DNA from: Clostridia bacterium BRH_c25
Lineage (GTDB): Bacteria > Bacillota_A > Clostridia > Lutisporales > Lutisporaceae
DNA length: 17,763 bases
NCBI GenBank assembly: GCA_001515955.1
Contig: LOES01000143.1
Coordinates: 1-17,763, forward strand
Direction of reading: 5' to 3'
The notes below the pieces were generated by a model that worked only from the letters and a program-made list of their open reading frames with translations, was not told where the DNA came from and searched no databases. This document shows positions 4,037-13,065 of the stretch, in pieces (the stretch's first letter is position 1; each line of letters starts with the position of its first letter). A program made the position numbers and the translations under genes.

Positions 4037-4107
4037 TTTATATGGGTTTGTTCATGGGTATATGTTACTATCATGGAAAATTATAAATTTTTATATAAAC
4101 TTGTTCA
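4037..4107. repeat. direct repeat with SpoIIID-like sites, 53 bp apart
   Basis: TTTATAT-N4-TTGTTCA occurs at 4037-4054 and again at 4090-4107, with 14 of 18 bases identical and AT-rich extension on the 5' side of both. On the minus strand the cores read ATGAACAAAC (from 4046-4055), a full match to the published SpoIIID consensus WWRRACARNY, and GTGAACAAGT (from 4099-4108), one mismatch. The 53-bp spacing is close to five helical turns. The second copy overlaps the -35 region of the sigma-K-like promoter. Confidence 0.45.
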
Positions 4108-4134
4108 CAAAAATAATAGTAAATCCATATTATA
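4106..4134 (+). promoter_or_regulatory. sigma-K-like promoter for the cysteine-rich gene
   Basis: CACA (4106-4109), 16-base spacer, CATATTATA (4126-4134). This matches the mother-cell sigma-K consensus mACm-N16-CATAnnnTA at every defined position. It would start transcription near 4141, leaving a leader of about 36 bases before the AAGGAAGGTGA ribosome site and the ATG at 4177. The match is by eye; no score was computed. Confidence 0.55.
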
Positions 4135-4176: not shown

Positions 4177-4941
4177 ATGACAAATAGAAATGCTACTTTA
4201 CCAACAGTATTATGTGAAGGAACTACCAAGGTAGAGATCTGTTCAGGTGGCAAAAGCGAATGGAAAGAATTGGTATTTGAATGCCTGAAGGTAAAGAAGG
4301 TATTTGACGAATTTGTATTAAGAGACTGCGTGGAAGGCATCAAATTCCAGGTATGTGGGAACCCCCATGGAGATAGGATAGAACCGACATTGATACTGAA
4401 AAACTGCAAGCTTAGCAATGTTGAAATCAAGAATGTATCTACAAGTACGGATAAAAGGCTTAAGTTCTCAGGAAAATGCTGCTGCGACGTATTTGGAAAG
4501 GACAGCAAAGGAAACATTATAAGGCTTGAAGTGCTTAACGTGCCTGAGGGGACCAATTTGTCAGAAGGGCCAAGCGGGGAGCTTTGCTTCAAATTTAATG
4601 TAAGAAGAACCTATCCCAATGTAACAGATGAGAACTTTGAAAGGCTGCTGCACTTCCTGGATCAAGGGAGATTTGAGCTTCAGTGCCTTGGAGAAGCACT
4701 GATTGACGAGGAGAATAATACAACGACCGGTGAAATACTGATTACCAACTTGGGCGCATTCATTGCAATAAAGTTTGACGCTGAAGTACAGCTTTGCATT
4801 CCTGTGTTAGGCTACTGTGCATTAGAGGAGGATGTAGCTCCTATAGATGTTGACTTCTGTGAAGAATTCGAATTCGAGGATATTCCTTCCTTCAATCCTC
4901 CTCAGCTTGGAGTACCTGTTCCTCCGTACCCTCCTGCCTGA
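4177..4941 (+). CDS. cysteine-rich protein, probable spore coat/spore surface protein
   Basis: A 254-residue protein with 14 cysteines (for example C13, C22, C36, C51, C60, C77, the triplet C101-C103, C137, C170, C207, C214, C228) and a proline-rich end (NPPQLGVPVPPYPPA). There is no signal peptide. The segment ECLKVKKVFDEFVLRDCVEG (36-54) recalls the clostridial coat-type motif 'C-x-K-V-x-K-V-[YF]-D-x-C' found in uncharacterised proteins of spore formers, sometimes next to DUF3794-like domains. I cannot assign a family firmly. Start ATG is supported by AAGGAAGGTGA (4162-4172). A good sigma-K-like promoter lies upstream, which fits late mother-cell expression and a cross-linked coat role; that role is an inference. 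The stop codon is TGA, nine bases before the start of the candidate selenoprotein gene. Confidence 0.78.
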   Translation: MTNRNATLPTVLCEGTTKVEICSGGKSEWKELVFECLKVKKVFDEFVLRDCVEGIKFQVCGNPHGDRIEPTLILKNCKLSNVEIKNVSTSTDKRLKFSGKCCCDVFGKDSKGNIIRLEVLNVPEGTNLSEGPSGELCFKFNVRRTYPNVTDENFERLLHFLDQGRFELQCLGEALIDEENNTTTGEILITNLGAFIAIKFDAEVQLCIPVLGYCALEEDVAPIDVDFCEEFEFEDIPSFNPPQLGVPVPPYPPA

Positions 4942-4950
4942 TAATGCAGT

Positions 4951-5151
4951 ATGATTAAAGAGGATATGAAAATAAAGGAAGTCATAAGAAAATATCCGGG
5001 TACAAAAAGAATTTTGAAGCACTATGAGCTGCTGGCATCAGGCTGCGGCTGAGGGGGATTTCAGGAGAGAACCCTTCGGCAGGCTGCCGAATCGAGGGGA
5101 ATCCAATTGAATAAGCTTATGGACATGTTGAATAACAAGACAAAGGGCTAG
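4951..5151 (+). CDS. candidate selenoprotein: DUF1858-like small protein with in-frame TGA (codon 34)
   Basis: From ATG 4951 the frame gives 33 residues, then TGA (5050-5052), then 32 more residues to TAG at 5149-5151, 66 in all. The first part (MIKEDMKIKEVIRKYPGT and on, ending ASGCG) and the part after TGA (GGFQERTLRQAAESRGIQLN and on) together match the layout of a DUF1858/ScdA_N-like domain: 'dMtI-xeV-xxkYP', a Cys/Gly motif, then 'TLeeAAeexGI-xLxxLlxxLN'. The TGA falls in the redox motif, giving C32-G-U34. A SECIS-like hairpin follows, and a terminator begins at the TAG stop, as expected if translation continues past the TGA. It starts nine bases after the cysteine-rich gene without a clear Shine-Dalgarno, so it may be translationally coupled; ATG 4966, just after AAAGAGG, is an alternative. 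Other readings are a real 33-residue protein, or a gene broken by a Cys/Trp-to-stop change. The upstream gene uses TGA as stop, so TGA is not reassigned. Confidence 0.5.
5050..5104 (+). promoter_or_regulatory. bacterial SECIS-like hairpin directly after the TGA
   Basis: A perfect 7-bp stem, TTCGGCA (5075-5081) with TGCCGAA (5085-5091), closes a GGC loop (5082-5084). The loop starts 29 bases after the TGA. This satisfies the published bacterial SECIS rules: loop of 3-14 bases, a G in its first two bases, and 16-37 bases from the UGA. Outer helices CCC/GGG (5072-5074 with 5096-5099) and GGATT/AATCC (5056-5060 with 5100-5104) can extend it. The hairpin is strong compared with nearby coding DNA. 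Confidence 0.5.
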
Positions 5152-5175
5152 TAATAACTAGCCCTACGTTTTTTT
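5145..5175 (+). terminator. intrinsic terminator
   Basis: Perfect 8-bp stem GGGCTAGT (5145-5152) and ACTAGCCC (5157-5164) with loop AATA, then TACG and seven T residues (5169-5175). The TAG that would stop the read-through frame lies inside the 5' arm. It separates the coat-like/DUF1858-like transcript from the glycan cluster. Confidence 0.9.
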
Positions 5176-5297: not shown

Positions 5298-7202
5298 TTG
5301 AACCATAATTACTGTTCAATAGTTAGTAGGGATTATGCCTATAAGGTATTAGCATTATACAGGTCAATACAAAAGCATGATGCAGACTTTCACTTTTTTT
5401 TCATATGTTTAAATCAGGAAGTGGAAGAGCTTTTTAGTGAGATGAATTTAGATAAAGCAAGTATTATAAGCATAGGCAGCATTGAGGCTAAGGACCAGGA
5501 GCTTCTTGGTGTGAAAAGTGGCAGAAATGAGAAGGAATATGCCTGGACGCTGAAGCCTGCAGCAATGCTGTATCTGCTTGAGAGTTATCCGGAGTTGGAT
5601 AATATTGTGTGGTTGGATGGGGATACAGCCTTCTTGTCAAATCCTCAGCCCATATATGATGAATGGGGAGATTATTCCATATTGCTGACTGAAGAGATGT
5701 ACTCCGGTAAATATGATTACATGAGCTGGTATTTTGGAGTGTATAATACAGGATTTTTAGGTTTTAAAAGGGATGATAACGCCATTAAATGCCTGAGATG
5801 GTTGAGAAGAAAGGTTATAGAATGGTGTTATGACAGACATGAGGATGGCTTGTGGAGTGATCAAATGTACTTTTCCAATCTTCCGAGCATATTCAGTAAT
5901 GTGGGCGTTAATAAAAATGCAGGCATAAATATGACACCCTTTATACTCAGAAGATTGCTGGATGAAGAGGGGGATGACATTACAGAAAGCTCTGGCTATA
6001 TATTTGTTAATGCTTCCAAAGTTGTACTTTTTCACTATTATGGATTCAAATTCTACAACGAGTCGGAATTTGAATTGTGCTTCTACAAGAACTGGAGATT
6101 TCCCGAAGAAGCCATTAAAGCTATTTACATGCCATATATAGAGTTGTGCAGTGAAGCAATTGCTCTCATAAAAGGACATAACGACAGTTTTTATTATCCA
6201 CAAAAGCCTGAAATAGATAAAACAGCATATTACTATTCAAAAGAAGGTAAAAACAATAAAAATTCATATAATTTTTGTACCATTGTTACTGGCGAATACT
6301 TGCCCAAAGCTTTGGCACTATACTTTTCTTTAAAAAGAAATGCAAAAAGCTTCCATTTATGGATTTGCTGCATGGATGACTTAGTATACGATGTATTGAA
6401 TAAATTCCATCTTTCAAATGTTACCTTAATAACGCTAAAAAGCATCGAAGATAATGAACTGCTTTCGGTCAAAAGCTTAAGGTACACTTATGAGTATTGC
6501 TGGACTCTTAAAGCCCCCCTGCTTTTACACATATTCAATTGCTATAAAAATATTGCTTCAATATTTTATATAGATGCAGACACTTACCTTTTTTCTAGTC
6601 CAGAGAAGCTATTTAACCAGTTAAAAAGTTTCTCGGTTTTACTGACAATGCACAACTTTACCACTAGCTTCAAATGTCTCTATACACAGAAAGGCCGGTA
6701 CAATGCGGGAATAATAGGATTCAGGAGAGATGAAAATGCACTGAGGTGCATTTGCTGGTGGCGTGATAGATGCATAGACTGGTGCTATGACAAAATTGAA
6801 AGCGGAAAATTTGGAGATCAGAAATATTTGATGGAATTCAGAAAAAAGTTTGGTGGAATATATCGAGAGAGGATGGTGGGAGCAAACGCTGCAATCTGGA
6901 ATATTGCAGACTGCAGCATAAGTGAATATGAGGGAAAGGTGCAAATAAATGGAAAGGACCTTATATTCTATCATTTCAGCGGCTTGATTATTTGCAACGA
7001 GTGGGAATATGGTCTATGGAGATGGGAATACCCGGAGCTGGATGAAAACGTCAGAAGGCTGATTTACCTTCCCTATGTCAAAGATATATACGATGCTATC
7101 AAAATGATAAAATCCGTATTAGAGGATGTGTCTATTCTGTTTTATGATATTTCAACTGTAAAAAACCCGAATAACTTAATAAACATGAAAGATTTTATTT
7201 AA
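5298..7202 (+). CDS. two-domain (tandem) GT-A-type glycosyltransferase
   Basis: A 634-residue cytoplasmic protein made of two homologous glycosyltransferase domains, about 1-300 and 322-634. Each repeats the same block order: an N-terminal sheet (CSIVSRDYAYKVLALYRSI; FCTIVTGEYLPKALALYFSL), the EYxWTLK motif (80-86; 399-405), a DxD metal/nucleotide motif (D107-G-D109 in WLDGDTAF; D426-A-D428 in YIDADTYLF), a GFxRDxNAxxCLxW block, and WSDQMYF or FGDQKYL (D188, D507). The domains differ near the end: FHYYGF (245-250) in the first, FYHFSGL (557-563) in the second. These motifs match a large uncharacterised bacterial family usually called 'glycosyl transferase' and found in surface-glycan clusters; donor and acceptor are unknown. 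The start is TTG at 5298, with AAGGGGGT seven bases ahead. Two copies of the structured intergenic element follow directly after its TAA. Confidence 0.85.
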   Translation: MNHNYCSIVSRDYAYKVLALYRSIQKHDADFHFFFICLNQEVEELFSEMNLDKASIISIGSIEAKDQELLGVKSGRNEKEYAWTLKPAAMLYLLESYPELDNIVWLDGDTAFLSNPQPIYDEWGDYSILLTEEMYSGKYDYMSWYFGVYNTGFLGFKRDDNAIKCLRWLRRKVIEWCYDRHEDGLWSDQMYFSNLPSIFSNVGVNKNAGINMTPFILRRLLDEEGDDITESSGYIFVNASKVVLFHYYGFKFYNESEFELCFYKNWRFPEEAIKAIYMPYIELCSEAIALIKGHNDSFYYPQKPEIDKTAYYYSKEGKNNKNSYNFCTIVTGEYLPKALALYFSLKRNAKSFHLWICCMDDLVYDVLNKFHLSNVTLITLKSIEDNELLSVKSLRYTYEYCWTLKAPLLLHIFNCYKNIASIFYIDADTYLFSSPEKLFNQLKSFSVLLTMHNFTTSFKCLYTQKGRYNAGIIGFRRDENALRCICWWRDRCIDWCYDKIESGKFGDQKYLMEFRKKFGGIYRERMVGANAAIWNIADCSISEYEGKVQINGKDLIFYHFSGLIICNEWEYGLWRWEYPELDENVRRLIYLPYVKDIYDAIKMIKSVLEDVSILFYDISTVKNPNNLINMKDFI

Positions 7203-7318
7203 ATATATTGAACGCACAAAAGTATTTACAAAGGGTATAGTGCGAATTCAATAACAATCAAGGAAGCTTTTTGCGAAACCTGAATGTGCTACATAAAGGA
7301 TGTTTCGCAGAAAGCCTA
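7203..7318 (+). repeat. structured intergenic element, copy A
   Basis: Starts at the first base after the glycosyltransferase stop. Module 1: ATTGAA/TTCAAT and CGCAC/GTGCG arms with a 2-base A bulge form a hairpin (7207-7252) over a 22-base loop. A linker ending AAGGAA follows. Module 2: arms GCTTTTTGCGAAAC (7266-7279) and GTTTCGCAGAAAGC (7302-7315) pair over 14 bp with one G-T wobble, around a 22-base loop that holds an ATGT/ACAT mini-stem. There is no open reading frame conserved between copies and no T-run, so it is not a simple terminator. Confidence 0.8.
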
Positions 7319-7431
7319 ATTGAACGCACAAAAGTATTTACAAAGGGTATAGTGCGAATTCAATAACAATCAAGGAAACATTTACGCGAAATTTGAACAA
7401 AGAATGTAAAATGTTTTTCGCAAAATGTATA
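7319..7431 (+). repeat. structured intergenic element, copy B
   Basis: The first 59 bases (7319-7377) are identical to 7207-7265 of copy A, at a period of 112 bp. Module 2 has different sequence but the same fold: ACATTT/AAATGT (7378-7383, 7423-7428) and GCGAAA/TTTCGC (7386-7391, 7416-7421) separated by a small internal loop. It ends 10 bases before the TTTGGAGG ribosome site of the next gene, so it lies in that gene's leader or in the operon's intergenic RNA. Confidence 0.8.
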
Positions 7432-7453
7432 GATATCATATTTGGAGGCATTT

Positions 7454-8422
7454 ATGGAAAGTTGGTCTTTTAGAAAAAAGAGGGTTGTTATTACTGGAGC
7501 AAATGGTTTTATTGGTTCACATATGGCGATGAGAATGCTTGTGGAGGGGGCTGATGTCAATGTAATGGTTCGAGAATCATCAGACCTATGGAGATTGGAT
7601 AAAGTAAGCAAGGACATTGAGTTATACAGAGTTGACTTAAGAAACAGCGGGGAAGTAGAGAAATATGTGAGAAAAATAAAGCCTGATTATGTATTTCATA
7701 TGGCAGCTTATGGAGTTGACTCAAGACAGAAGGATTATACAATTGCAGCAGAAACAAATATTATTGGAACAATAAATTTACTCAAAGCAGTCATTGATGT
7801 TGGCTGTAAGAAATTCATCAATACAGGCACCAGTATGCAATATGGCAATAAGTTAATGCCAATACGGGAAATAGAGCACTATTCCCCCTCAAACATATAT
7901 GGAAGCACCAAAGGGGCAGCAGTAATGATTGCACATCAGATTGCGACTGAAAATGATATTAATATAGCTACTATAATACCCTTCGGTGTTTTTGGAGAAA
8001 ACGAGGGAAGCCATAAATTCTTTCCCCATGTCATTTTGTCGGTTCTGGGGGGGAAGAGCATCGAATTGTCACCCTGTGAACAATACAGAGATTATTGCTA
8101 TATAGAGAATATTATTGATGGGTTTCTAATGGCTGCAGCAAATGAAAAGGTAAAGGATGAAATATTTAACATAGGAAGCGGAGATGTATATCAGCTTAAG
8201 CATTTTGTGAACTTGTTGGTGGAAAGTATGAAATGTGAAAGTGATATCAAATACGGCTCAGTAGAGTATAGGAAAAACGATTTGTGGAGTCCACAGCCGG
8301 ATATAAGTAAAATAACAAATATGTTGGGGTGGAGTCCAAGAGTAAGCCTTTCTGAAGGTATAGACAGAACCATTGAGTGGTTTAGAGCAAATTACGATAA
8401 GTACAGTGTAAAGGGGAGATAA
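7454..8422 (+). CDS. NAD(P)-dependent nucleotide-sugar epimerase/reductase (extended SDR)
   Basis: A 322-residue extended short-chain dehydrogenase/reductase acting on a nucleotide sugar in the cytoplasm. Visible features are the Rossmann motif GANGFIG (15-21), DLRNSG (61-66), the HMAA segment (82-85), the catalytic region NTGTSMQYG with Y149-x-x-x-K153 (IYGSTKG), and the C-terminal NIGSG and WSP motifs. The overall look is that of CDP- or dTDP-4-keto-hexose reductases/epimerases (RfbJ/RfbS/RfbE-like); the exact reaction cannot be read from sequence. I chose ATG 7454 because TTTGGAGG (7441-7448) lies five bases ahead; an upstream TTG at 7442 would start inside that site. It is four bases upstream of the next SDR gene, in the same operon as an RfbF-like cytidylyltransferase, so a CDP-sugar substrate is plausible. 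Confidence 0.86.
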   Translation: MESWSFRKKRVVITGANGFIGSHMAMRMLVEGADVNVMVRESSDLWRLDKVSKDIELYRVDLRNSGEVEKYVRKIKPDYVFHMAAYGVDSRQKDYTIAAETNIIGTINLLKAVIDVGCKKFINTGTSMQYGNKLMPIREIEHYSPSNIYGSTKGAAVMIAHQIATENDINIATIIPFGVFGENEGSHKFFPHVILSVLGGKSIELSPCEQYRDYCYIENIIDGFLMAAANEKVKDEIFNIGSGDVYQLKHFVNLLVESMKCESDIKYGSVEYRKNDLWSPQPDISKITNMLGWSPRVSLSEGIDRTIEWFRANYDKYSVKGR

Positions 8423-8425
8423 AAG

Positions 8426-9490
8426 GTGAGCCTCAATAAAATAATCCAGGAGGATGTAAGGGACATTTTCCTCGAAATGGACGGAAAGTTAAAAACCTTA
8501 GAAGGCAGCAACTTTCTAATTAGCGGCGGAGGTGGGTTTCTTGGCTCATATTTTATGGATTTGCTGAAATATTGCAATGACAATATTTTCTTAGAACCTG
8601 CTACTGTCATATGTATAGACAATTTTATTACAGGTGTGCCAGAAAGGGTAAAGCACCTTTTAGATAATGATAGCTTTATAATAGTAAACGCAGACATTTC
8701 GAAACCTGTAGAGTTGAATAATGATGTAGATTACATCATACATGCAGCGAGCATAGCTTCCCCTACTTTTTACAGGAAGTATCCAATTAAGACCCTGGAG
8801 ACCAACGTACTTGGGCTTATAAATCTCGTTGAGTTGGGCATGAAAAAGAATATAAAGAGCTTTCTAAACTTGTCCAGCAGTGAAATATATGGGGATCCTG
8901 ATATAGCTCATATACCTACAAGAGAGGACTATAACGGGAATGTATCCTGTACAGGACCAAGGGCATGCTATGATGAATCCAAGAGAATGGGCGAAACTAT
9001 GTGTGTCAACTACTATAAAGAATACGGGGTGCCCATAAAGACAGCAAGACCCTTCAATGTTTATGGTCCTGGTTTGAAACTGGATGACCGCAGAGTGATA
9101 CCTGATTTTTTCAACGATGCCATTAATAGACATAAGATAGAAATATTAAGCGACGGTTCTCCCACCAGAAGCTTTTGCTATGTAAGCGATGCAATAAAAG
9201 GCTTTATGCTTGCATTACTATCAGAGTTCAATGGAGAAGCATTTAATATAGGAAATGACCAAACGGAGATTAGTATGAAGGGAATAGCGGAATTAATTGC
9301 AGAGATTGTAGGGAATGTTGAAGTTAAGCTTAAGAAAAGTGATGATAAGGAGTACCTGACTGATAATCCGAAAAGAAGGTGCCCTGATTTGACCAAGGCA
9401 AAGACTTTCTTGAACTATTACCCGAAGGTGGATCTTAAAACAGGCCTTAAGAGGATTTTTCAATGGTATATGCAGACCAATATTTTATAG
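8426..9490 (+). CDS. UDP-glucuronate decarboxylase-like SDR (UXS-like NAD-dependent epimerase/dehydratase)
   Basis: A 354-residue extended SDR. A helical N-terminal extension (about 1-28, NKIIQEDVRDIF) precedes the Rossmann motif GGGGFLG (34-40). The catalytic triad region SSSEIYGDP (150-158; S151-S152-E153), GPRACYDESKR (Y182, K186) and SDGSPTRSF (R248) are very close to UDP-glucuronate decarboxylase (UXS), whereas 4,6-dehydratases have T-D-E at the triad. RPFNVYGPGLKLDDRRVIPDF departs from typical UXS (RIFNTYGP), so the substrate may differ. A UDP-glucose 6-dehydrogenase three genes downstream would supply UDP-glucuronate, supporting UDP-xylose or a related 4-keto pentose as product. Start is GTG at 8426, after AGGGGAG and three bases beyond the previous stop. 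Best held as UXS-like until tested; a CDP-sugar enzyme is the main alternative. Confidence 0.8.
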   Translation: MSLNKIIQEDVRDIFLEMDGKLKTLEGSNFLISGGGGFLGSYFMDLLKYCNDNIFLEPATVICIDNFITGVPERVKHLLDNDSFIIVNADISKPVELNNDVDYIIHAASIASPTFYRKYPIKTLETNVLGLINLVELGMKKNIKSFLNLSSSEIYGDPDIAHIPTREDYNGNVSCTGPRACYDESKRMGETMCVNYYKEYGVPIKTARPFNVYGPGLKLDDRRVIPDFFNDAINRHKIEILSDGSPTRSFCYVSDAIKGFMLALLSEFNGEAFNIGNDQTEISMKGIAELIAEIVGNVEVKLKKSDDKEYLTDNPKRRCPDLTKAKTFLNYYPKVDLKTGLKRIFQWYMQTNIL

Positions 9491-9505
9491 CATAGGGAGG
9501 TTTAT

Positions 9506-9913
9506 ATGACAAAGAAATATGAAATTACTGAAATAAATCCCTATAAAGATATAAGGGGCGAGCTTAAGAAGGTTTTTATAAAATCGATGCTAAGTGCTGA
9601 AAAGTCTATTGAAGAAATATATGTGCTGCATACCAAGAAAGGCTCTGTAAGAGGCAATCACTACCACAGGCAGAATGTAGAGTTTTTTACTGTAATAAAA
9701 GGGACTGCAATAATAGCACTTAAGGATGTCGAGGAGGGAGAAGCTGAGATACTTAAAGTATCAGCAGTAGACGATATTGTAATTAAAGTACCGGAGAATG
9801 TTGCACATGGGTTTAGAAACGACGAGGATGAAGAGCTTGTGATACTTGCTGCCGCGTCCAAGCTATATGACCTAGAGGATACTGATACCTTTAACTATCA
9901 GCTGCTATACTAA
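9506..9913 (+). CDS. cupin nucleotide-sugar isomerase/epimerase-like protein (RmlC/FdtA/WxcM-type)
   Basis: A 135-residue single cupin domain. The first cupin motif is GSVRGNHYHRQNVEFFTVIKG, with H52 and H54, and the second is VPENVAHGFRN, with H101. The RGxHYH signature resembles both dTDP-4-dehydrorhamnose 3,5-epimerase (RGLHYQ) and the sugar 3,4-ketoisomerases FdtA/QdtA (RGxHAHK), but the protein is shorter than RmlC (about 180) and close to FdtA length. It probably epimerises or isomerises a 4-keto sugar bound to a nucleotide. Start ATG has GGGAGG seven bases ahead. It sits between the UXS-like SDR and the cytidylyltransferase, as such cupins often do in surface-sugar clusters. Confidence 0.75.
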   Translation: MTKKYEITEINPYKDIRGELKKVFIKSMLSAEKSIEEIYVLHTKKGSVRGNHYHRQNVEFFTVIKGTAIIALKDVEEGEAEILKVSAVDDIVIKVPENVAHGFRNDEDEELVILAAASKLYDLEDTDTFNYQLLY

Positions 9914-9973
9914 TAGCAGAATGGGATTGCATAAGTTGAATTAGGACAAATTGCAGGAAGCAGGGGTGATATT

Positions 9974-10741
9974 TTGAAGGTAGTGATACTTTGCGGAGGA
10001 TATGGAATGAGAATGAGGGAGGTAACGGAGCATATTCCCAAGCCTCTTGCAGTAGTCGGAGGTAGACCTATACTGTGGCAGATAATGAAAATATACAGCA
10101 AGTATGGATTTGATGATTTTGTACTGCCTTTGGGTTATAAGGGAGAGAAAATAAAGGAATACTTTATGAACTATGACTGGTTACAGAATGATTTTATTCT
10201 AGACTTCAGCGGTAATGAGAATAAAATATGCAAATTGAAAAAAACGGAAAAATGGAGAATAACCTTTGTAGATACCGGAGTGGATACAATGACAGGAGGG
10301 CGAATAAAAAGGATTCAGCCTTTTATAGAGGATGACACCTTCCTTTTGACCTATGGGGATGGTCTTTGTGATATCAATATTGGAGAACTCCTCAAGTATC
10401 ATCAGAATATGGGAGTAACGGCTACTTTGACAGGAATACAAAAAAAGAGCCAGTATGGAATATTAAAAGCCCAGGACGGCCTTGTAACATCCTTTGCAGA
10501 AAAAACGGAAATCGAAGGTCTAATAAACGGCGGTTTTTTTGTATTTAATACAGCAGTTTTTGACTACCTGAGCGATGACCAGTGTGTTCTTGAAAGAGAT
10601 CCACTTGCCAAGCTTACCTCTGAAGGTCAGCTTGCGGTATATGAGCACAAAGGCTTCTGGCAGGCAGTGGATACAAGTAAAGATTTGCAGGATATGGATA
10701 CAAACTGGGGGACCATCGAAAGTATCTTAGGGATATCATAG
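9974..10741 (+). CDS. rfbF: glucose-1-phosphate cytidylyltransferase-like sugar nucleotidyltransferase
   Basis: A 255-residue nucleotidyltransferase, the same length as Salmonella RfbF (257), which makes CDP-glucose from CTP and glucose-1-phosphate. Shared RfbF-type blocks are RPILWQIMKIYS (31-42), GYKGEKIKEYFMNY (54-67), VDTGVDTMTGGRIKR (99-113), LTYGDG (125-130, metal-binding D129), INGGFFVFN (184-192) and GFWQAVDT (227-234). The nucleotide-binding loop reads CGGYGMRM rather than the common GGxGTRL, with K23 in IPKP conserved. Start is TTG at 9974, with AGGGGTG five bases ahead. No CDP-glucose 4,6-dehydratase of the RfbG type is present in the window, so what happens to the CDP-sugar is open. 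A copy of the structured element follows directly after the stop. Confidence 0.87.
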   Translation: MKVVILCGGYGMRMREVTEHIPKPLAVVGGRPILWQIMKIYSKYGFDDFVLPLGYKGEKIKEYFMNYDWLQNDFILDFSGNENKICKLKKTEKWRITFVDTGVDTMTGGRIKRIQPFIEDDTFLLTYGDGLCDINIGELLKYHQNMGVTATLTGIQKKSQYGILKAQDGLVTSFAEKTEIEGLINGGFFVFNTAVFDYLSDDQCVLERDPLAKLTSEGQLAVYEHKGFWQAVDTSKDLQDMDTNWGTIESILGIS

Positions 10742-10836
10742 ATATATTGAACGCACTAAGTGCGAATTCAATAACATTAAGGAAACCGTTTTGCGGAATT
10801 TGAATGAAAGTACAGATGTTATCCGCAAAACGCTTA
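10742..10836 (+). repeat. structured intergenic element, copy C
   Basis: Starts one base after the cytidylyltransferase stop with ATATATTGAACGCAC, identical to the start of copy A. Module 1 (10746-10771) keeps both arms and the A bulge, but its loop is only TAA instead of 22 bases. The linker also ends in AAGGAA. Module 2 is a perfect 11-bp stem, CGTTTTGCGGA (10787-10797) and TCCGCAAAACG (10822-10832), with a 24-base loop. GCGGA/TCCGC replaces GCGAA/TTCGC of the other copies, a compensating pair change. It ends 15 bases before the next start. Confidence 0.8.
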
Positions 10837-10851
10837 GTAGGTGAATAAGCA

Positions 10852-11700
10852 ATGGAAGTATTGTTTTGTACAATAGCATCAAAATACAGGCTGCATCAAT
10901 GTGTCGCCATGTATCATTCCTTGAAGCACTTCATGGCTGATGCAGCTTTGGTTGTTCTTGCAGTTGACGGGGAGTCAAGGAAGGTGCTTGATGCTTTGCA
11001 GCTGCCTGGGATAACTGCTATTTCTGCTGAAGAACTGGAGGATGCTGAGTTAAAAGAACTAAAGAAACAAAGGAGTTCAAGTGAATACTGCTGGACATTG
11101 AAGCCTGTACTGCTGTTGCATTTATATGAAAGCTTCAAGGACTTTAAGATTTTTGCCTATCTTGATACAGATCTCTATTTCTTTGACAATCCCATGAGGC
11201 TTTTTAATGGAAGAGGAAATTGGTCTGTACTCTTTACTACACATAAGGTTAATAGGAAGGCTAATGGAGGCTTTGTAGCGTTCATGAGAGGAAGTCACGC
11301 CTATGAAGCATTAAAATGGTGGAAGAAAAGGTGTCTGGAGTGGTGCTATTTCATTAACGATAACGGAAGGTTTGCAGACCAGGGCTATTTGGATTTTATG
11401 AGAGCAAGATTCAAAGGAGTTTCATACCTTGATATGCCAGGAGCAAATGTGGCTACATGGAATTACTTCAAATTCGACCTTGAATTGAAGGACGGAAATA
11501 TATATGTAGGTAGGAACAGGTTGCTTTTCTATCATTTCAGCGGTTTAAGGCTGAAGAAAATAGCCGGCTCAACTGCATTATACGGTGCTGAAACGCCTTG
11601 TTTGGTATGTGGAATCTATAGCAAGGCATTAAGAGCTGCGATATCGGAAATAGGAGAGGTTGACAGGGATATTACGGAATGTTTTTATTTAGGGCTATAA
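10852..11700 (+). CDS. single-domain GT-A-type glycosyltransferase
   Basis: A 282-residue member of the same family as the two-domain glycosyltransferase at 5298-7202, closest by eye to its second domain. Motifs: FCTIASKYRLHQCVAMYHSL (5-24), EYCWTLKP (78-85), the DxD D105-T-D107 in YLDTDLYFF, WWKKRCLEWCY, FADQGYLDFM (D176), GANVATWN (197-204) and FYHFSGL (226-232). There is no signal peptide or membrane segment, so it acts on an intracellular acceptor. Start ATG follows TAGGTGA at about eight bases. It is separated from the upstream cytidylyltransferase by the structured element and from the downstream UDP-glucose dehydrogenase by 12 bases. The C-terminal 45 residues are poorly conserved. Sugar donor unknown. 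Confidence 0.85.
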   Translation: MEVLFCTIASKYRLHQCVAMYHSLKHFMADAALVVLAVDGESRKVLDALQLPGITAISAEELEDAELKELKKQRSSSEYCWTLKPVLLLHLYESFKDFKIFAYLDTDLYFFDNPMRLFNGRGNWSVLFTTHKVNRKANGGFVAFMRGSHAYEALKWWKKRCLEWCYFINDNGRFADQGYLDFMRARFKGVSYLDMPGANVATWNYFKFDLELKDGNIYVGRNRLLFYHFSGLRLKKIAGSTALYGAETPCLVCGIYSKALRAAISEIGEVDRDITECFYLGL

Positions 11701-11712
11701 GGGGAAATAAAG

Positions 11713-13065
11713 ATGAGATTATCAATTATAGGAACTGGTTATGTAGGATTGGTAAGCGGTGTATGCCTGGCCAGCAAGGGACATGAGGTAATATGCGTGG
11801 ACAGCCGGGGGTCAGTTGTGGAAAGTATAAACAGTTCAAAGGCAACAATATATGAGCCTTATCTTTCGGAATATATTAAGAAAGCTGTTACAGCGGGGAA
11901 GCTATCGGCAACCGTTGACTTGAGTCATGCGGTTAATAACAGCGATATATCCATAATTGCCGTAGGCACCCCATATAAGGATAAGAATATTGACCTTAGC
12001 TATATAGAAAAGGTTTCACGGGATATAGGAAGGCTTTTGAGAGAGAAGGAAGCATATCACGTTGTTTGCATAAAAAGCACGGTGATACCTACAACTACCG
12101 ATACCTTTGTAAGGAATATTATAGAGCTGGAATCAGGAAAGAAAGCAGGAGAATTCGGTCTTGTCATGAATCCGGAGTTTTTGCGGGAAGGAGAAGCGGT
12201 GATGGACTTTCTGCACCCCGATAGGATTGTGATAGGGGCATATGACGACAAGAGCTTCGAATTATTCAAAAAAGTATACGAAGATTATTTTGAAGCGCCA
12301 ATAATAAGGGTAAGCTTAAGGACTGCAGAGCTTATTAAATATACCTCCAATTCACTTTTAGCCATGCTGATTTCATATTCCAATGAGATTGCAGCAATAT
12401 CAGAAGTGATAGGAAGCCTGGACGTGGAAGAGGTGCTTTACGGAGTATCTCTGGATAAAAGACTCAGCCCGAGGACAGATGGGAAGCTCGTCAGACCGGA
12501 TATATTGAAATATCTGAAGGCCGGACGTGGTTACGGAGGAAGCTGTTTTCCCAAGGATGTCAAAGCGCTGATAGCTTTTTCTGAGCAGAAGGGTTATACG
12601 CCAGAACTATTGAAGGCTACAACAGAGATTAATGAAAAACAGGTTGCTAAAATCGTGGATAGGATTGAAAGTGAGCTGGAAATAATCGAAGGCAGAAGGA
12701 TATTGGTGCTGGGGCTTGCCTTCAAGCAGAACAGCGATGACATAAGGGAATCCCCGGCTATAGAGCTTGTGAAGCTTCTTGTTGAAAGAAAGGCATTGGT
12801 CAGTGTCACTGACCCAATGGCTATGGAAAATACTAGGATGGTGCTGGGTGAAAAGGGCATATGTTATTTGCAGGATTATAAAAATGAAACTGCAAGCTAT
12901 GATGCAGCGATATTGATGACGCCATGGCAGGAGTATGTAGAGTTTCTGAACGAAGGTTCTTATGAACCCTTGAGTATAGCAATGCTGTTTGATGGATGCA
13001 GAGCACTTCGGAAGAATAAAATACTTGGGTCAGGCATAAAATATATGGGCATTGGCTTATCCTAA
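11713..13065 (+). CDS. UDP-glucose 6-dehydrogenase
   Basis: A 450-residue UDP-glucose/GDP-mannose dehydrogenase that oxidises UDP-glucose twice with NAD to UDP-glucuronate. Features in order: N-terminal Rossmann motif GTGYVGLVSG (7-16), AVGTP (83-87), STVIP (122-126), NPEFLREGEA (153-162), the central helix with ELIKYTSNS (K209, N213), GRGYGGSCFPKD (271-282; catalytic C278), and the C-terminal domain with LGLAFKQNSDDIRESP. The middle segment KRLSPRTDGKLVRPDILKYLK is longer than usual. Start ATG has AAGGGG nine bases ahead. It is the last gene of the glycan operon and would feed the UXS-like SDR at 8426-9490. The usual symbols are ugd or tuaD; the substrate is taken from family resemblance. 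Confidence 0.92.
   Translation: MRLSIIGTGYVGLVSGVCLASKGHEVICVDSRGSVVESINSSKATIYEPYLSEYIKKAVTAGKLSATVDLSHAVNNSDISIIAVGTPYKDKNIDLSYIEKVSRDIGRLLREKEAYHVVCIKSTVIPTTTDTFVRNIIELESGKKAGEFGLVMNPEFLREGEAVMDFLHPDRIVIGAYDDKSFELFKKVYEDYFEAPIIRVSLRTAELIKYTSNSLLAMLISYSNEIAAISEVIGSLDVEEVLYGVSLDKRLSPRTDGKLVRPDILKYLKAGRGYGGSCFPKDVKALIAFSEQKGYTPELLKATTEINEKQVAKIVDRIESELEIIEGRRILVLGLAFKQNSDDIRESPAIELVKLLVERKALVSVTDPMAMENTRMVLGEKGICYLQDYKNETASYDAAILMTPWQEYVEFLNEGSYEPLSIAMLFDGCRALRKNKILGSGIKYMGIGLS

Follow-up and report, generated by a model that had tools for sequence, protein, structure and literature searches.

A predicted selenocysteine-containing DUF1858-type protein encoded beside a cysteine-rich protein in clostridia

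We analyzed a 17,763-nucleotide stretch of the genome of Clostridia bacterium BRH_c25 (contig LOES01000143.1), referred to here as the window. It contains a short gene with a DUF1858/ScdA_N-type domain whose reading frame is interrupted by a TGA, which we predict to be read as selenocysteine (Sec, U). The gene starts 9 nt past the stop codon of an upstream gene, p254, and translational coupling of the two is therefore assumed. The features of the locus are listed in Table 1. A tRNA scan and an Rfam scan (gathering thresholds) of the window found nothing.

Table 1. Features at the selenoprotein locus (positions in the window)
Feature	Position	Strand	Description
Sigma-K-type promoter (predicted), CACA-N16-CATATTATA	4106..4134	+	Upstream of p254
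p254	4177..4941	+	254-aa Cys-rich protein, first gene of presumed two-gene operon; homologs, AF2 model
Putative selenoprotein gene, DUF1858/ScdA_N-type domain	4951..5151	+	66 aa, Sec34, stop TAG at 5149-5151
TGA predicted to be read as selenocysteine, codon 34	5050..5052	+	Motif C32-G33-U34-G35-G36, context SGCG-U-GG
SECIS-like hairpin UUCGGCA-GGC-UGCCGAA, apical AGGCU	5075..5091	+	AGG starts 28 nt after UGA; RNAalifold, covariation
Intrinsic-terminator-like stem and T run	5144..5165	+	9-bp stem, contains the TAG stop

Translation of positions 4951 to 5151 with TGA as U gave 66 residues, with U at position 34 and the end at the TAG. With Cys in place of the TGA, this product scored 37.6 bits against the Pfam DUF1858 profile (cut-off, 32.2) and spanned the whole profile (positions 1 to 59). 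Residues 1 to 33 alone scored 29.0 bits, below the cut-off. The second half supplies the rest of the domain and of its fold, and U34 is aligned with the second Cys of the CxxC motif in 2k5e. The copies of two relatives also miss the DUF1858 cut-off (29.8 bits in G004 and 28.5 in G014). An earlier note, made from the sequence alone, had proposed two half-domains in one frame joined at a TGA next to C32-G, a TAG lodged in a terminator, and a 66-residue rather than a 33-residue product. The analysis agrees with each of these proposals: the full profile is spanned, U34 was recovered, the TAG lies within a terminator-like stem followed by a T run, and, besides the low score of the first half alone, the frame after the TGA is under selection (see below). 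The TGA might instead be a true stop, so that a 33-residue peptide is made and the remainder is non-coding. The resemblance of the first half alone to DUF1858 fits this explanation, and TGA does close long open frames elsewhere in the loci that we examined (60 control stops). However, completion of the domain and fold by the second half argues against it, as do the relatives.

Direct searches with the 66-residue sequence (proteins, genome contigs, and plasmids) found no relatives. A viral match (L001) was read in three frames and dismissed as chance. Relatives were reached via the neighboring gene, p254, which matched 89 proteins, itself included, at an E value of ≤0.001. An alignment of 40 of these led to 18 loci in named genomes, including three from Lutispora. 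The same gene lies behind p254 in 15 of the 18 loci, and its C-G-U-G-G motif has a TGA at the same codon; no such gene follows p254 in the other three (L016, L018, and L019). We aligned the window with 14 of the 15 gene-bearing loci (L015 was excluded for an N), and Q44, L60, and N61 are invariant across these 15 sequences, which is not expected of a non-coding remainder. C-G-U-G-G is present in all 18 sequences when the window is taken with 17 loci.

Of 391 Clostridia genomes surveyed, 16 carry this CxU form (75.8 to 112.7 bits), each with one TGA, and the next score was 53.7 bits. The gene is present in 18 of 22 genomes of the order of G001, to which the nearest relatives belong, always with one in-frame TGA and never TAA or TAG, and with the downstream half conserved; it is absent from G015, G017, G384, and G394. 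Among 398 genomes of the phylum, nothing exceeded 61 bits apart from the known G011 copy. A Cys form of the CxU subfamily was not seen among the 391 Clostridia, 22 order, and 398 phylum genomes. Thus, the expectation that relatives would have Cys or TGA at codon 34 held for the TGA, which is invariant, and failed for Cys within the subfamily. No relative had another sense codon there or ended at the TGA with nothing conserved downstream, the pattern that the earlier note had named as contrary to its proposal. The arrangement is more than a chance one, because the TGA, the motif, and the downstream half recur in relatives. Judging from the samples examined, the CxU subfamily appears to be confined to one order of clostridia.

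Substitution patterns indicate that the frame downstream of the TGA is under protein-level selection. For the seven closest sequences, the ratio of nonsynonymous to synonymous differences (pN/pS) was 0.26 before the TGA and 0.28 after it, versus 2.2 and 1.3 in the other two frames. Stops number 55 and 51 in these alternative frames across 17 sequences. Over all 17, where synonymous differences are close to saturation, pN/pS was 0.47 before and 0.58 after the TGA (L015 was excluded from these ratios). Together with the codon-position pattern, pN/pS downstream of the TGA argues against a true stop.

DUF1858 genes elsewhere in the same genomes served as comparisons. We fetched and read 60 of 64 DUF1858 matches in 18 genomes. 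Besides CxU, the Sec-containing groups were CFGU (13 loci), CVGU (five), and CLSU (one). Cys forms exist among the paralogs, and it is only against such paralogs that a Cys/Sec pairing was seen.

We then considered whether the mRNA contains a selenocysteine insertion sequence (SECIS). RNAalifold predicted a single 7-bp hairpin from a 16-sequence alignment, with four pairs changed on both sides. Of the cells in the 15 distinct rows, 98.1% are paired, compared with 18 to 51% when the partner is shifted by 1 to 3 columns. None of 500 shuffles matched the observed paired percentage, double-change cells, or covariation score. A stem of 5 to 9 bp occurs at the expected place in all 18 sequences (offset 29, or 32 in L014, which has one extra codon). 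In 17 Cys paralogs, no stem at this place exceeds 3 bp, although 3 of them reach 7 bp at another offset. Synonymous recodings attained the observed stem in a mean of 0.66% of trials (maximum, 1.85%). All 18 sequences encode the loop Gln with CAG, although the two Gln codons occur at similar frequency in these loci (CAG, 848; CAA, 822). However, of 15 Cys paralogs that contain Gln-Ala-Ala, 9 also have CAG-GCT, so the loop-codon argument is weak by itself.

The hairpin was also compared with other Sec codons. The CFGU paralogs have a stem of at least 6 bp at the same place in 11 of 13 loci and only 2 to 3 bp in the other 2. The AGG lies 28 nt past the UGA in 13 of 13 CFGU and 17 of 18 CxU loci, and 31 nt past it in L014; this spacing is not telling by itself, as the CVGU group has an AGG there without the hairpin seen elsewhere. 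An AGG-loop criterion was passed by 17 of 18 CxU sequences, 6 of 13 CFGU, 0 of 5 CVGU, 1 of 1 CLSU, 0 of 19 selD, and 0 of 60 stop TGAs. It therefore cannot serve as a general SECIS detector, and the stem score alone passes 11 of the 60 ordinary stop TGAs. The selD rows L175, L178, and L182 under this criterion are off-target pattern matches. The selD genes of these genomes carry a separate hairpin, likewise at a constant distance downstream of the UGA (8 to 9 bp in 17 of 19), but with AGGU or AAGU loops and at offset 33 rather than 29. The covarying element therefore fits a bacterial SECIS on comparative grounds. The same hairpin, and the fact that all 18 genomes of the order with the gene have TGA at this codon rather than TAA or TAG, are difficult to reconcile with a true stop, which we regard as extremely improbable.

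The distribution of the selenocysteine machinery was examined in the relatives. selA and selB were above cut-offs in 17 of 18 genomes, including all 15 gene-bearing ones tested. The sole exception, G018 (locus L019), lacks selA, selB, and the gene. The reverse does not hold, in that G015 and G017 have p254, selA, and selB yet lack the gene. selD was above its cut-off in 20 of 20 genomes; it contains a TGA in 19 of those searched and none in G018. tRNA-Sec was over the gathering score in 15 of 18 genomes and at 64 bits or more in 13. Only high scores count, because the search matches all 14 control genomes at an E value of ≤0.001. G006 and G018 reached only 49 to 50 bits, a level also attained by second-best matches. 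Of the 15 genomes with the gene, 11 gave a strong tRNA-Sec match. The UGA could conceivably be read by another route, such as a suppressor or Trp tRNA, giving a residue other than Sec. The other four gene-bearing genomes are in keeping with this, and Sec incorporation is itself a prediction. However, the gene co-occurs with selA, selB, and selD, the hairpin lies at the same distance as in the CxxU paralogs, and the UGA position is aligned with a redox Cys of 2k5e. We give such readthrough hardly any weight. The invariant TGA, the selection downstream of it, and the SECIS-like hairpin support the selenoprotein reading, and SelB almost certainly inserts selenocysteine at UGA codon 34, with the hairpin at 5075 to 5091 as its guide, as far as comparative evidence can tell.

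The earlier note named no described selenocysteine form of this family. This needs correcting: a DUF1858 domain-containing selenoprotein (PF08984; motif, CxxU) already appears in lists in PMC9312934 and PMC13188914, and one of these two reviews treats forms with a different Sec motif as distinct subfamilies. The listed protein and ours share the domain family, a single Sec at the redox motif, and prediction from sequence. They differ in that ours has CxU followed by GG (CGU in 18 of 18 sequences, so none has CxxU), is a separate gene, and is linked to p254 and a sigma-K-type promoter. Might ours nevertheless be merely the listed CxxU selenoprotein? The domain is the same, and so is the place of the SECIS in the CFGU paralogs. 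On the other hand, 13 of 18 genomes hold a separate CxxU paralog with the motif CFGU, and, in an alignment with 2k5e, the CxU form is three residues longer ahead of the Cys and its Cys-Sec spacing is one residue shorter. Members of the CxU form align across the whole 58-position model of TIGR03980 (hybrid cluster protein-associated redox disulfide domain), but the four tested miss its cut-off of 44.95 (38.3, 35.6, 29.3, and 29.8 bits), which the one CxxU paralog tested passes. We consider it very improbable that the two are the same. Nor does the protein belong with ScdA_N (PF04405) of YtfE/RIC: that match was weaker (23.5 bits versus a cut-off of 32.5), the protein is only 66 residues long and lacks the hemerythrin-like di-iron domain, and CC is found there in place of CxU. 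What is new is the CxU subfamily, found in one order only in the samples and beside p254; a selenoprotein DUF1858 as such is already known. No report of the CxU form or of its sporulation setting was found in the literature searched, with most subscription papers outside its scope, and no report of selenium use in sporulation was recognized in the full-text literature searched.

Other spacings of Cys and Sec were seen in this superfamily. We picked 38 TGA-containing regions by hand, not exhaustively, from matches of the order, Clostridia, and phylum surveys. They comprised 33 CxxU, one CxU (G395), two CU (L199 and L217), and two UxxC forms. The CU forms, GCUGG and SCUHG, respectively, have adjacent Cys and Sec and a SECIS-like hairpin loop at the same offset, 29. 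Because the hairpin keeps its offset in CFGU, CxU, and CU forms, as does the AGG in the first two, Sec can be described as fixed relative to the SECIS, with the partner Cys at −3, −2, or −1. The UxxC forms are DUF1858-like genes with Sec in the first position (L209, GULGC; L219, GUIGC). In L060 to L065, L229, and L231, CxxU is followed by Pro (CVGUP, CLSUP, and CLGUP), and closely similar genes in neighboring genomes have Cys.

The neighbor p254 matched no family in the Pfam and NCBIfam copies searched. Extending the Pfam search to an E value of 10 for p254 and four relatives gave a single weak match (E = 0.14), and homolog P0013 bears the precomputed label PF27077.1. Its AF2 model is beta-rich (pLDDT, 81.4), and Foldseek found no match to it at an E value of ≤0.001. 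Such weak or absent matches prove nothing. p254 scored above 200 bits in 18 of the 391 Clostridia genomes, and the selenoprotein gene is present in 16 of those 18; all 16 gene-bearing genomes carry p254. p254-like proteins at an E value of ≤0.001, many matching through the C-terminal part only, occur in 134 of the 391. spoIVA is present in 127 of these 134 and in 154 of the 257 others, counts that are uncorrected for relatedness and completeness. Some distant p254-like proteins elsewhere in Clostridia form a tandem pair (L163) or the end of a 594-aa frame (L156), and a CAP/YkwD-looking gene, named by eye, lies beside those of L158 and L163. In L014 (positions 10001 to 11657), two tandem p254 copies precede the selenoprotein gene, and the second has its own sigma-K-like promoter. 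p254 of Lutispora thermophila (L017) has an in-frame TGA at 4388 to 4390, where L012, L013, L015, L016, and L018 have Cys; the frame is conserved downstream, and no convincing SECIS was found there (z = 0.29). This TGA may be a mutation or a sequencing error, or the partner protein may itself contain Sec there.

The earlier note had called the neighbor a sigma-K-type gene, and its promoter agrees with that label. The window copy matches the sigma-K consensus given in PMC5749712, (a/c)AC(a/c)-N16-CATA-N3-TA, at every position. Across 18 aligned loci, which did not include L014 and L019, CACA and CATATTAT upstream of p254 vary little or not at all. The consensus is perfect at p254 in 12 of 19 loci, and these account for 12 of its 13 matches in 537,224 bases (both strands). 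The pattern AC-N16/17-CATANNNTA precedes 13 of 20 p254 genes but only 3 of 299 other open reading frames of more than 100 codons, one of which is the second p254 copy in L014. When A or G was allowed as the last base, the counts were 19 of 20 and 8 of 299. On the strength of this promoter, the operon is likely a target of sigma-K, expressed in the mother cell during late sporulation.

In loci that are long enough, the gene order is rarA, an opposite-strand gene, p254, the selenoprotein gene, and then either sugar/glycosyltransferase genes or iscR-nifS-nifU-mnmA. That order raises another explanation, in which the protein is a selenoprotein with no part in sporulation, being a general thiol/Fe-S maintenance factor tied to iscR-nifS-nifU-mnmA. 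iscR is the next recognized gene in L006, L012, L013, L015, and L017, without intervening sugar genes, and YtfE, a protein with the same type of domain, is described in PMC9268430 as interacting with both IscS and IscU. However, in the window a terminator-like stem separates the gene from those downstream, and about 8 kb of glycosyltransferase and nucleotide-sugar genes (positions 5298 to 13065) intervene, as they do in some relatives. The promoter before p254 also fits sigma-K. We consider a role as a general Fe-S factor unlikely.

Several observations weigh against one part or another of this reading. An obvious Shine-Dalgarno sequence was not seen ahead of 4951. On two of five covariation measures, 23 and 483 of 500 shuffles reached the observed value. 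The 61-nt window stretch from the UGA folds no better than shuffles (z = −0.78), so support for a SECIS rests on comparison. The gene-bearing genomes in which tRNA-Sec was not strong are G002, G005, G006, and G008 (4 of 15; genome completeness is not stated). G015 and G017 have p254 without the selenoprotein gene; therefore, p254 does not need it. The promoter is imperfect with respect to sigma-K in 7 of 19 loci (L012 to L018), six of which have CATATTATG, and sigma-A-like matches also lie within the promoter region.

With these points taken into account, our best explanation is that the gene encodes a Sec34 protein with a redox role, in a sigma-K operon with p254, and we hold this combination to be probable. 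The product would be a 66-residue four-helix protein of the DUF1858/ScdA_N type, encoded by the second gene of the operon. It would donate two electrons to, or accept them from, the cysteines of a candidate partner protein, and a redox role in sporulation is likely. p254 is the simplest candidate for that partner, a suggestion that we make tentatively. The selenoprotein might then set the redox state of p254 during assembly of a spore layer or shield p254 from oxidants. More speculatively, and with some doubt, a CxU relay in the mother cell might act on the cysteines of p254 as a new spore-layer family, one member of which, in L. thermophila, has a TGA for Cys; Sec would be fixed by the SECIS, and movement of the partner Cys from −3 to −2 to −1 would tune the redox pair.

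Ordinary annotation would cut this selenoprotein subfamily at the TGA, and the comparative evidence for it is clean. The series of CxxU, CxU, CU, and UxxC forms on one fold is a natural set for comparing resolving-Cys spacing with tuning of the Sec site. The finding points toward a use of selenium in sporulation, where a selenium protein was not expected, and because cultured Lutispora species, among them L. thermophila (L017) and L. saccharofermentans (L012), carry the gene, this is directly testable.
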